Of a stretch of 64,000 bases of DNA, positions 47,330 to 52,714 are shown one piece after another (positions within the stretch are counted from its first letter, which is position 1; every line of letters begins with the position of its first letter). The stretch spans positions 62,001 to 126,000 of the forward strand of contig NZ_AZRN01000036.1 in the NCBI RefSeq assembly GCF_002895565.1, given 5' to 3'. Position numbers and translations under genes: made by a program. Source of the stretch: Petrotoga mexicana DSM 14811. GTDB lineage: Bacteria > Thermotogota > Thermotogae > Petrotogales > Petrotogaceae. The notes under the pieces are model-generated. The model saw only the letters and a program-made list of their open reading frames with translations. It was not told the origin of the DNA and ran no database searches.

Positions 47330-48994
47330 ATGCTTTCTGATATTGAAATTGCAAGATCTGCAAAACTCAAAAAAATTGATTTAATCGCAAACGAACTGGA
47401 TATTCCAGAGGAGTACTACAACCTTTACGGTAAAAACATCGCCAAAGTTTCCCACAAATATTTGAATGAACTTAACTTCAAAAATGATGGTAATTTAGTA
47501 ATGGTCACTGCTATTACACCAACCCCTGCTGGTGAAGGAAAAACTACTACAAGTATCTCACTATCCATGGCTTTAAACAAAATCCACAAAAGATCGATAG
47601 TAACGCTAAGAGAACCTTCTTTGGGTCCGGTAATGGGTATAAAAGGTGGAGCAGCAGGAGGAGGGTATTCTCAAGTCCTCCCTATGGAAGACATAAACTT
47701 ACATTTTACAGGAGACATTCATGCTATTTCCTCAGCACATAACCTGGTGTCTGCAGTTTTAGACGATTATATAAAGTACAACAAATGTGACATAGATTCA
47801 ACCGAAGTCTCTTGGCCTCGCACTATGGACATGAACGATAGGGCCTTGAGAGAAATAATAGTTGCCTTGGGTGGAAAGAAAAACGGTTATCCTAGACAAG
47901 ATGGTTTTATAATCACCGCTGCTTCAGAAATAATGGCAATACTATGTTTGGCAGAAAATCTTGAAGATTTAAAGAAAAAATTATCTAATATAGTAGTTGC
48001 ACGAAATAAAAAGAGAGAGCCAGTGACTGTAAAAGATTTAGAAATTACAGGTGCTCTTTCTGTATTGTTAAAAGATGCGATTAATCCTAACTTAGTTCAA
48101 ACAATAGAAAATACACCTGCTTTCGTTCATGGTGGACCATTTGCAAATATTGCCCATGGGACCAATTCTATTTTAGCAACAAAACTTGCTTTGAAGCTTT
48201 CTGATTACGTTGTAACAGAAACAGGTTTTGGTTCTGATTTAGGAGGAGAAAAATTCTATGATTTTGTTTCTCCAACTTTTGGTTTAAAACCATCAGCAAC
48301 GGTTTTGGTAGCTACGATAAGGGCTTTAAAATACCACGGCGGGCAAAACCTAAAAGATTTGAATACACCAAACCTTGAAAGTTTAGAGAAAGGGTTGCCT
48401 AACTTACAGGTTCATGTTGAAAACCTAAAAAAGTACAATATTCCTGTGGTTGTTTCTTTAAATAAATTTTACTCAGATACGGATGACGAAATCAATATGG
48501 TAAAAGATTATTGCGATAAATTAGGTGTAGAAGTAAGTGTCAACGAAGGATTTGAGAAAGGTTCAGAAGGTGCTATAGACTTAGCTGAAAAAGTGGTAAA
48601 AGTTAGCGAGCAAAGATCCGAATTGAAAAGTATTTACGATTTTGAAGATCCTTTAGAAGTGAAAATAGAAAAGTTAGCAAAAAATATCTATCGTGCTGCC
48701 AAGGTTGAATATTCTTCACAGGCCTTATCAACAATAAAATTTTTGAAAAAATACGGATACGAAAATCTCCCTATAATTGTAGCAAAAACCCAGTATTCTA
48801 TATCCGACGATCCTAAAAAACTTGGATTTCCAAAAGATTATACATTCACAATACGCGATTTCGAACTTTCCGCGGGTGCTGGTTTCATTGTGGCATTGGC
48901 TGGTGATATATTGAGAATGCCTGGACTTTCAAAAGTTCCCAATGCAGTAAATATGGATATAGACAATGAAGGAAACATATCCGGATTGTCATGA
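47330..48994 (+). CDS. fhs: Formate-tetrahydrofolate ligase
   Basis: The enzyme interconverts formate + ATP + THF and 10-formyl-THF + ADP + Pi. The 554-residue protein has the P-loop [12 protein letters not shown] (about residues 64-75), [59 protein letters not shown] and the C-terminal DDPKKLGFP. In purine-fermenting anaerobes the reverse direction makes ATP from formyl-THF, which fits the genes upstream. The ATG follows AAAGGAGGAG. Confidence 0.97.
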
Positions 48995-49076: not shown

Positions 49077-49892
49077 ATGTTAATTGAAGTAAAGGATATT
49101 ATTAATGAAATAAAGGCAGAAATATCATCACTTAAAGAAAAAGTTCCTTATGAACCCAAACTAGTAAGTTTAGTTGTTGAACCCGATGAATCTACCACAT
49201 CTTATCTTAACTCTCAAAAAAGAAATGCAAAAAAATATGGAATCAACTTAGAAATTGTTGAAAGTAATGATTTGATTAATGATCTAAGAAAATATAATGA
49301 AGACGATGATACTGATGCGATCTTTATTGCAAGACCTTTAAAGAAAGGGTACACTGAACTAGATATAGCAAAATATATCAATCCAGAAAAAGATGTTGAA
49401 GGGGTAAGTTTACATAACATTGGTTCTATGTTTTACGAAAAAGAACTATTTGTACCTTGTACAGCAGAAGCAGTGGTGAAAATAATAGAAGATACGACCG
49501 ACGTTAGAGGAAAGAATATTGTTATTCTTGGAAGAAGTACGACGGTAGGAAAACCAGCTGCAATAATGCTTCAAAGACATGGAAGGGATGCCACTGTTAC
49601 GGTCACACATACAAAAACTAATAACTTAAAAGAGGTAACCAAAAAAGCAGACATTTTGGTTGCAGCAATAGGAAAGGCTAATTTCGTTGATAGGAGTTTT
49701 GTAAAAGAAGGAATGATCGTGATTGATGTGGGGATTAATGTATTGAATGGAAAGATAGTAGGTGATGTAGATAAAGATATCTCAGAAATTTGCAAATTAA
49801 CACCTGTACCCGGTGGAGTAGGAAGTGTTACAACAGCTATCCTAATGAGAAATGTTTTTAGAGCGGCTAACAATAAAAAGGGAGATTTATAA
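49077..49892 (+). CDS. folD: FolD methylene-THF dehydrogenase/methenyl-THF cyclohydrolase family
   Basis: FolD normally oxidises 5,10-methylene-THF and hydrolyses methenyl-THF. The 271-residue protein keeps KDVEGVSLHNIG, PCTAEAV, ILGRSTTVGKPAA, VDRSFVKEGMIVIDVGIN and TPVPGGVGSVTTA. The active-site motif YxxxK, however, reads Y43-L-N-S-Q47, with glutamine at the position of the catalytic lysine (Lys56 in human, Lys54 in E. coli numbering). This predicts a weak or lost cyclohydrolase step, with dehydrogenase probably retained. ATG after AGGGGG; 82 bases after fhs. Confidence 0.92.
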   Translation: MLIEVKDIINEIKAEISSLKEKVPYEPKLVSLVVEPDESTTSYLNSQKRNAKKYGINLEIVESNDLINDLRKYNEDDDTDAIFIARPLKKGYTELDIAKYINPEKDVEGVSLHNIGSMFYEKELFVPCTAEAVVKIIEDTTDVRGKNIVILGRSTTVGKPAAIMLQRHGRDATVTVTHTKTNNLKEVTKKADILVAAIGKANFVDRSFVKEGMIVIDVGINVLNGKIVGDVDKDISEICKLTPVPGGVGSVTTAILMRNVFRAANNKKGDL

Positions 49893-49894
49893 TC

Positions 49895-51067
49895 TTGAAA
49901 TACAATTTTGACGAAATTGTGGACAGAAAACCAACAGAATCAGTAAAATGGAACGGTGTAAAAAAACTTTATGGTAGAGACGATGTTATTCCAATGTGGG
50001 TAGCGGATATGGATTTTAAATCTCCACCTGACGTAATTGAAGCTTTAAAAAAACGAGCAGAACATGGGATATTTGGATATCCAATGTTAGACGATTATTA
50101 TTTTGACCCTTTTATAAATTGGATCGAAACCAGACATGGTAGTGAGGTAAAAAAAGAGTGGATAGTGACTACTGACGGTGTGGTTGACGCTTTAAAAGTA
50201 GCGATACTTGCCTACTCCAAACCAGGAGACAACGTTGTAATTCAAACACCTGTTTATTATCCTTTTTATAATATCATCAAATCCAATGGCCGAATGATAA
50301 TAAAAAATTCTCTAAAATTTGAAAACAGAAATTATAGCATGGACTTTGATGATTTAGAAAAGAAATTATCACTCAAAAGAACGAAATTATTCATCTTATG
50401 TAATCCACACAACCCGGTTGGAAGAGTTTGGAAACGGGAAGAATTAGAAAAGCTACTTCAATTATGTGTTAAACATAACGTTATCTTGTTATCGGACGAA
50501 ATACATTCAGATCTGGTATTTTCTCCCAACAAACATATTCCAATATTTTCGATCTCACAAGATATAAAAGAGAGTTCTTTAACTTTTTATGCCCCAAGTA
50601 AAACCTTTAATTTGGCTGGTTTAAAAGCGTCATTTGTTGTTATTCCAAATGAACAATTACGAACAGAATACAAAAACGTGATCGAGAGCCTTACAAGCGA
50701 TAATTTAAATATCTTTGGAATGGTTGCAGCTAAAGTTGCTTACGAAAGAGGTAAAGATTGGCTTGATGATTTACTAAATTACTTAAGGGGTAATATTGAT
50801 TACGTATACGATTTTTTCAATGAAAAACTACCTAAAATAAAATTACAAAAACCAGAGGGGACATATTTAATGTGGTTAGATTTTAGGGCATATGGAGATG
50901 AACAAAAAGTCAAAGATATACTCGTAAACAAAGCAAAAGTTGGTTTAGAAGAAGGTAGCATCTTTGGAGAAGAAGGTAAAGGCTTTTTTAGAATGAATAT
51001 TGGATGCTCTATATCTATTTTAAAAGATGCATCCAACAATATTTATAATGCTTTTAAAGATTTATAA
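49895..51067 (+). CDS. PatB/MalY family PLP-dependent aminotransferase or C-S lyase
   Basis: The 390-residue fold-type-I enzyme has the PatB/MalY pattern: VPMWVADMDFKSPPDVIEAL, YPFYNIIKSNGR, LCNPHNPVGRVW, LLSDEIHSDLVF, and the Schiff-base lysine in YAPSKTFNLAGLKASF. Members are cystathionine beta-lyases or aminotransferases. It begins at a TTG two bases after folD and may work on sulfur amino acids or serine-derived compounds. Its start follows AAAGGGAGA. Confidence 0.88.
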   Translation: MKYNFDEIVDRKPTESVKWNGVKKLYGRDDVIPMWVADMDFKSPPDVIEALKKRAEHGIFGYPMLDDYYFDPFINWIETRHGSEVKKEWIVTTDGVVDALKVAILAYSKPGDNVVIQTPVYYPFYNIIKSNGRMIIKNSLKFENRNYSMDFDDLEKKLSLKRTKLFILCNPHNPVGRVWKREELEKLLQLCVKHNVILLSDEIHSDLVFSPNKHIPIFSISQDIKESSLTFYAPSKTFNLAGLKASFVVIPNEQLRTEYKNVIESLTSDNLNIFGMVAAKVAYERGKDWLDDLLNYLRGNIDYVYDFFNEKLPKIKLQKPEGTYLMWLDFRAYGDEQKVKDILVNKAKVGLEEGSIFGEEGKGFFRMNIGCSISILKDASNNIYNAFKDL

Positions 51068-51095
51068 AAGTAGAAAAAGTAAGAGGGAGGATTTA

Positions 51096-52024: not shown

Positions 52025-52714
52025 ATGAAAAACTTTGGTATTTTCGACGTAATCGGTCCCGTTATGATTGGTCCTTCTAGTTCTCATACTGCTGGTGCTG
52101 CTAGAATTGCTCTAGTAGCCCGAAGGATAGCTGGGGTAGGCTATCATCATGTGGATTTTTTTCTTCATGGTTCTTTTGCAGCTACTTACAAAGGCCATGG
52201 AACCGATAAGGCTCTTGTTGGAGGAATATTAGGGTTTGAACCTAGTGATCTACGCATTAAGAATTCTTTTTTTCATGCCAAAGAGGCTGGAATTACTTAT
52301 AATTTTATTCCTGTTAACTTGGAAGACGTCCATCCTAATACCGTAAAAATTGAATTTCATTACCCCGATGGCAGTTGTTTTTATGTAATCGGTTCTTCTA
52401 TCGGTGGAGGAAATATTGAAATCACTAATATTAATGGTACCTCTGTTATTTTTACTGCAGAAAATCCTACTTTACTTTTTAGATACAAAGAGCAAAAAGG
52501 AATGATTGCTTATATTTCCAATGCTTTGTACTCCAAAGGGCATAATATTGATTTAATGAGAACAATCAAAGAAGACGATGAGGTTCTTCTTATAGTTGAA
52601 TTAAATGAAAGTTTAGATTCTGAACTCTATGAATCTATCCAAAACGGAAAGACTTTTTTATTTAGCAAATATATTTATGTACCCATTTCAAAAATAGGTA
52701 AAAGCAATGATTAA
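52025..52714 (+). CDS. sdaAB: L-serine dehydratase, beta subunit
   Basis: The 229-residue subunit shows the beta-domain signature DVIGPVMIGPSSSHTAGAAR and HGSFAATYKGHGTDKALVGG, then an ACT-like regulatory region (GMIAYISNALYSKGHNIDLM). Two-gene serine dehydratases are typical of Gram-positive and other anaerobes. It pairs with sdaAA, 53 bases upstream; serine formed from C1 units and glycine would give pyruvate. Confidence 0.95.
   Translation: MKNFGIFDVIGPVMIGPSSSHTAGAARIALVARRIAGVGYHHVDFFLHGSFAATYKGHGTDKALVGGILGFEPSDLRIKNSFFHAKEAGITYNFIPVNLEDVHPNTVKIEFHYPDGSCFYVIGSSIGGGNIEITNINGTSVIFTAENPTLLFRYKEQKGMIAYISNALYSKGHNIDLMRTIKEDDEVLLIVELNESLDSELYESIQNGKTFLFSKYIYVPISKIGKSND

Follow-up and report, generated by a model that had tools for sequence, protein, structure and literature searches.

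Loss of the catalytic lysine in FolD of Petrotoga mexicana and other Thermotogota, and a predicted division of labour with FTCD_C-family proteins

The folD locus

The window analysed here is a stretch of 64,000 nucleotides from Petrotoga mexicana DSM 14811. It contains a gene of the FolD family that is surrounded by the following genes (THF, tetrahydrofolate):

47330..48994, + strand: fhs, formate-THF ligase (Pfam FTHFS, 839.9 bits), 82 bp upstream of folD
49077..49892, + strand: folD, FolD-family 5,10-methylene-THF dehydrogenase of 271 amino acids, predicted from open reading frame, Pfam and alignments to be without cyclohydrolase activity
49895..51067, + strand: class I/II aminotransferase, beginning 2 bp past the folD stop codon
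51027..51971, + strand: L-serine dehydratase alpha chain, 3' of the aminotransferase gene, start codon uncertain (alternative at 51090)
52025..52714, + strand: L-serine dehydratase beta chain, after the alpha chain gene

The product of folD belongs to its family by both Pfam domains, THF_DHG_CYH (PF00763) with 61.1 bits at a cut-off of 32.8 and THF_DHG_CYH_C (PF02882) with 184.1 bits at a cut-off of 27. It stays below the NCBIfam equivalog cut-off for bifunctional FolD, as the top match (NF010769) among the best 25 of 33 reaches 228.6 bits and 392 are demanded. The proximity of fhs is a common feature, since the two genes adjoin in many Thermotogota and fhs is present in at least 64 of 106 folD loci of this phylum.

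Active-site residues

As described in passages of PMC3368264 and PMC3338484, the FolD site comprises Tyr52, Lys56, Gln100 and Asp125 in the human enzyme and Tyr50, Lys54, Gln98 and Asp121 in that from Pseudomonas, with lysine acting as general acid/base of the cyclohydrolase reaction, glutamine positioning this lysine and aspartate holding the pterin. For comparison we use 103 genomes of Thermotogota, 97 of them with FolD. All 106 FolD copies were read, and the 97 main copies are those that remain when eight MTD1-like paralogues and one probable contaminant (L106) are set aside. The relevant codons of the window gene are:

49203..49205, + strand: TAT, Tyr43, corresponding to E. coli Tyr50 in the alignment to solved FolD structures; start of the YxxxK motif, kept
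49215..49217, + strand: CAA, Gln47, aligned with E. coli Lys54 and human MTHFD1 Lys56
49218..49220, + strand: Lys48, poorly conserved in the phylum (Lys in 32 of 97 main copies) and an unlikely substitute
49329..49331, + strand: Ala85, aligned with the lysine-positioning E. coli Gln98 and human Gln100; glutamine lost
49392..49394, + strand: Asp106, aligned with E. coli Asp121, pterin binding, kept

An earlier sequence-only reading had described the YxxxK site as Y43-L-N-S-Q47 with glutamine in place of the catalytic lysine. This is borne out by the codons from TAT to CAA and by the printed alignments, where Gln47 falls on the lysine of the solved structures and no gap is found. The same reading regarded the other motifs as intact, and here it has to be corrected: Tyr43 and Asp106 do persist (each in 97/97 main Thermotogota copies), but the lysine-positioning glutamine is replaced by Ala85. 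The window protein thus shares its fold family and the folate-site tyrosine and aspartate with the bifunctional enzymes of E. coli and Pseudomonas aeruginosa and with the DC domain of human MTHFD1, whereas the Lys54/Gln98 pair of those enzymes is represented by Gln47/Ala85. A placement of Lys48 in the active site is unlikely, since position 48 is variable across the phylum (Lys 32, Glu 22, Gln 13, Arg 10 and others among the 97 copies), and a takeover of the lysine role by this residue was rejected.

The loss of these residues is by itself no proof of a lost activity. Table 2 of PMC6443876 lists a cyclohydrolase kcat/Km of 0.097 for the K53A variant of Bombyx (silkworm) MTHFD and of 0.22 for Q97A, compared with 0.13 for the wild type, and a modelling study of MTHFD2 (PMC9173628) assigns no clear catalytic role to Lys88. 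Such data would suit a FolD that is still bifunctional because Gln47 or nearby residues together with ordered water suffice, in which case FTCD_C proteins (see below) would serve histidine breakdown, and genes of the histidine pathway are indeed common in Thermotogota and present in the genome of the window. We nevertheless consider this improbable. In E. coli FolD the exchange K54S reportedly abolishes the cyclohydrolase activity alone, and the distribution of FTCD_C in Thermotogota and Bacillota_A points in the opposite direction.

FolD across Thermotogota

The catalytic lysine is found in none of the 106 Thermotogota copies, which have Gln (69), Ile (35) or Met (2) instead, and the position of Gln98 is occupied by glutamine in just 2 of the 97 main copies. 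The comparison with other FolD proteins of the phylum that had been proposed from the window alone therefore confirms the observation and at the same time widens it: as the lysine is absent from all copies in 97 genomes, its loss is a fixed, phylum-wide trait and no peculiarity of the window gene. The dN/dS ratio of folD amounts to 0.08–0.13 in seven of eight near relatives from the genus and its neighbours (it could not be computed for the eighth), so that among the Thermotogota read the lysine-less FolD is, as judged from these alignments, a state under purifying selection. A sequencing error, for which a single base would suffice (CAA versus AAA), was rejected because glutamine occurs in 6/6 genomes of the genus and lysine nowhere in the phylum, and the low dN/dS values, where computed, likewise led us to reject a pseudogene.

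The locus L106 (G002:C53) is a near copy of the fhs-folD region of the window, and its fhs is 97% identical to the window's. The host genome belongs to a different family and has its own FolD too, so this is probably an assembly contamination.

FTCD_C-family proteins as candidate partners

If methenyl-THF is not hydrolysed by FolD another protein such as FchA could do so, and a search along this line, suggested already by the sequence-only reading, revealed two genes of the FTCD_C (FchA-type) family in the same genome, both on contigs other than that of folD. The product of the first (G000:C34:68007-68549, 237.9 bits) is closer to the solved FchA structure 7vg4 (134.7 bits) than to FTCD 1tt9 (89.4 bits) and 1o5h (80.5 bits), and its sole NCBIfam match is FchA with 201.6 bits, which is below the equivalog cut-off of 275. 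A tree of 63 FTCD_C proteins, meant to separate cyclohydrolases from cyclodeaminases, did not assign the Thermotogota copies to either role. The second gene (L003, G000:C4:85012-85503, 100.3 bits) encodes a divergent FTCD_C protein of 193 amino acids. Its neighbours are a peptidase-like and a queuine tRNA-ribosyltransferase-like gene, both named from reading their translations. Proteins of the L003 type occur in the genera g1, g2 and g3, and a second FTCD_C copy is present in g6 too.

Within the phylum FTCD_C is present in 99/103 genomes, or in 95/97 if only those with FolD are counted; the two FolD-bearing genomes without a match are G045 (99% complete) and G073 (60% complete). This bears on the other possibility raised in the sequence-only reading, namely that in these bacteria, most of them thermophiles, methenyl-THF hydrolyses by itself and requires no enzyme. 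The retention of FTCD_C in 95/97 genomes with a lysine-less FolD makes such an assumption unnecessary, Clostridium, Fusobacterium and Acetoanaerobium likewise combine FTCD_C with a FolD of this type, and we consider spontaneous hydrolysis highly improbable as a general explanation; only G045, nearly complete and without an FTCD_C match, would leave room for it. This genome (L084, L085) combines a lysine-less FolD with an MTD1-like paralogue and is a genuine exception, unless its FTCD_C gene was lost in a gap of the assembly.

The histidine pathway complicates the assignment. Formiminotransferase is encoded in 92/103 and urocanase in 81/103 Thermotogota genomes, in that of the window at G000:C33:9832 and G000:C33:7897, respectively, so that both a cyclodeaminase and a cyclohydrolase should be required in most Thermotogota. 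Most of them have a single FTCD_C, which could be the cyclodeaminase of histidine breakdown, while the genus of the window has two. On the other hand, urocanase is missing from 22 Thermotogota genomes, among them all seven of genus g5 (two of the 22 were assigned by elimination), and 21 of these retain FTCD_C. Hence it does not serve histidine breakdown solely, a fact that argues for a cyclohydrolase role in Thermotogota and speaks against a FolD that is still bifunctional. A function of FTCD_C in the histidine pathway alone was also rejected, as it fails to explain FTCD_C where formiminotransferase or urocanase is missing.

Co-occurrence of FTCD_C with FolD types in Bacillota_A and other lineages

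Of 139 evenly drawn Bacillota_A genomes, 138 contain FolD, and the FolD proteins were read in 130; the eight genomes with unread FolD (G173, G175, G209, G223, G251, G269, G271 and G285) all have FTCD_C. FTCD_C is present in 21/22 genomes where all read FolD proteins are devoid of the lysine, in 24/24 with lysine and a glutamate at the position of Gln98 and in the only one with lysine and histidine, compared with 27/83 genomes (strong matches; four more weak) with the intact Lys/Gln pair. The class with lysine and glutamate, represented by L285, L284 and L312 (e.g., MVELPLP), has FTCD_C mostly beside folD.

Most FTCD_C in genomes with an intact pair is accounted for by formiminotransferase, and copy number follows both the presence of this enzyme and the breakage of the FolD Lys/Gln pair. 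With an intact pair the mean number of FTCD_C copies is 0.04 in the absence of formiminotransferase (none in 54/56 genomes) and 1.07 in its presence; with a broken pair it is 1.06 and 1.08 without and 1.78 and 1.90 with formiminotransferase. If we consider solely the 82 genomes without formiminotransferase, FTCD_C is found in 28/28 with a broken and in 2/54 with an intact pair, which is difficult to reconcile with a bifunctional lysine-less FolD (G179 and G247, with weak partial formiminotransferase matches, belong to the group of 56 but were left out of that of 54). The neighbourhood shows the same division: an FTCD_C gene is located less than 2 kb away from 0/28 intact-pair copies of folD versus 35/53 broken-pair copies, the latter made up of 19/25 with lysine and glutamate, 16/27 without lysine and 0/1 with lysine and histidine.

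All these counts, and the Fisher values calculated from them, refer to genomes or gene copies and not to independent evolutionary events. Among the 82 genomes that lack formiminotransferase, about three changes along the FolD tree explain where the pair is broken, and the independent pairs (one supported, three over all branches) are too few for significance, as a sign test demands six or more informative ones; the supported one runs in the expected direction in most pairings. In 12 of the 130 genomes a lysine-bearing and a lysine-less FolD occur together, and FTCD_C is absent from six and weak in two of them, which fits because the lysine-bearing FolD can perform the step. G289, with two lysine-less FolD proteins and a third, unread FolD match, has no FTCD_C and together with G045 represents counter-evidence.

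A second set of 80 Clostridium-like and Lachnospiraceae-like genomes, 50 of them read, contains FTCD_C in 20/21 lysine-less and 1/29 lysine-bearing cases. Fusobacterium and Acetoanaerobium have a lysine-less FolD and FTCD_C, Listeria a FolD with lysine and no FTCD_C, and in Collinsella (lysine-less FolD) a gene annotated as "cyclodeaminase/cyclohydrolase" ends 2 bp before folD.

Proposed function and relation to known systems

From the observed residue losses and their fixation in the phylum, from the presence of FTCD_C and from the way in which FTCD_C of Bacillota_A co-occurs with FolD types, varies in copy number and neighbours folD we consider it very probable that the window FolD is a monofunctional methylene-THF dehydrogenase and that a separate FTCD_C cyclohydrolase performs the second step. 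In this scheme FolD, with folate and cofactor binding kept, is predicted to oxidize 5,10-methylene-THF in an NAD(P)-dependent manner, and its cyclohydrolase activity would be missing as the Lys/Gln pair for opening of the methenyl ring is lost. Methenyl-THF would be converted to 10-formyl-THF by an FchA-type protein, most likely that encoded at G000:C34:68007-68549, and Fhs, encoded just upstream of folD, would connect 10-formyl-THF with formate. The proposal of the sequence-only reading that another protein (FchA) hydrolyses methenyl-THF is thus favoured by FTCD_C in the same genome, by its presence in 95/97 genomes and by its tracking of pair loss in Bacillota_A. It falls short of proof, as the Bombyx K53A variant stays active and the histidine pathway may be where the single FTCD_C of most Thermotogota belongs.

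The usual single FTCD_C of Thermotogota is at odds with the two expected under the copy-number rule of Bacillota_A. The simplest guess is that one FTCD_C performs both jobs, as methenyl-THF cyclohydrolase and formimino-THF cyclodeaminase, in most Thermotogota, which would refine the division between FolD and FTCD_C and not exclude it. It would account for the combination of a single FTCD_C, formiminotransferase and lysine-less FolD in most of these genomes, whereas Bacillota_A of this kind average 1.90 copies. However, the genus of the window itself has two FTCD_C genes, and formiminotransferase may have a different purpose, for instance the removal of 5-formyl-THF, so we regard such a dual enzyme as possible but tentative. 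Somewhat more doubtful is the general rule that the state of Lys54/Gln98 of FolD together with formiminotransferase sets the number of FTCD_C genes, with Thermotogota deviating by a dual FTCD_C and a one-step FolD throughout the phylum.

A division of labour between FolD and FchA is already known from other bacteria, and the comparative rule is what is added here. The closest parallel is Clostridium perfringens, whose FolD is said to be monofunctional by assay and to work with FchA; with its lysine-less FolD, separate FchA and Fhs it resembles the arrangement predicted for the window. L146, which is 98% identical to the C. perfringens FolD, has YQNFQ at the YxxxK site and leucine at the position of Gln98. 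In contrast, the window protein has alanine at the latter position, its function is a prediction, and in its genome fhs adjoins folD and the FTCD_C genes are located on other contigs. In the fhs1-fchA-folD cluster of Acetobacterium woodii separate fchA and folD genes, accompanied by fhs, carry the annotations cyclohydrolase and dehydrogenase (PMC10472528); unlike the window this cluster contains fchA and serves acetogenesis, and the likeness is one of annotation. PMC7219735 mentions FolD and FchA as two enzymes in general terms. Among titles and abstracts in PMC, which cover few subscription papers, no report of a phylum-wide lysine loss or of the copy-number rule was found, and in a FolD family survey from 2024 (PMC11064299) a term search of the main text gave no occurrence of "FchA", "lysine" or "Thermotog".

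Genome annotation assigns both activities to FolD nearly automatically, and metabolic models take this over. A check of two residues would correct the assignment in many anaerobic Bacillota and in what is apparently an entire phylum and would point to FTCD_C as a possibly essential partner, and ambiguous cyclodeaminase/cyclohydrolase genes would gain a testable role.

A known monofunctional member of the FolD family is the NAD-dependent dehydrogenase MTD1 of yeast (1edz). It is a weak match to the window FolD (43.2 bits), and the MTD1-like proteins of Thermotogota (e.g., L072 and L088) are separate paralogues. These second FolD-family proteins of about 335 amino acids are found in genus g5 (L072, L074, L076, L078, L080, L082 and L084) and genus g7 (L088). 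All eight have isoleucine at the lysine position and an altered form of the usual VPGG motif of FolD, and MTD1 is the nearest PDB entry for L088.
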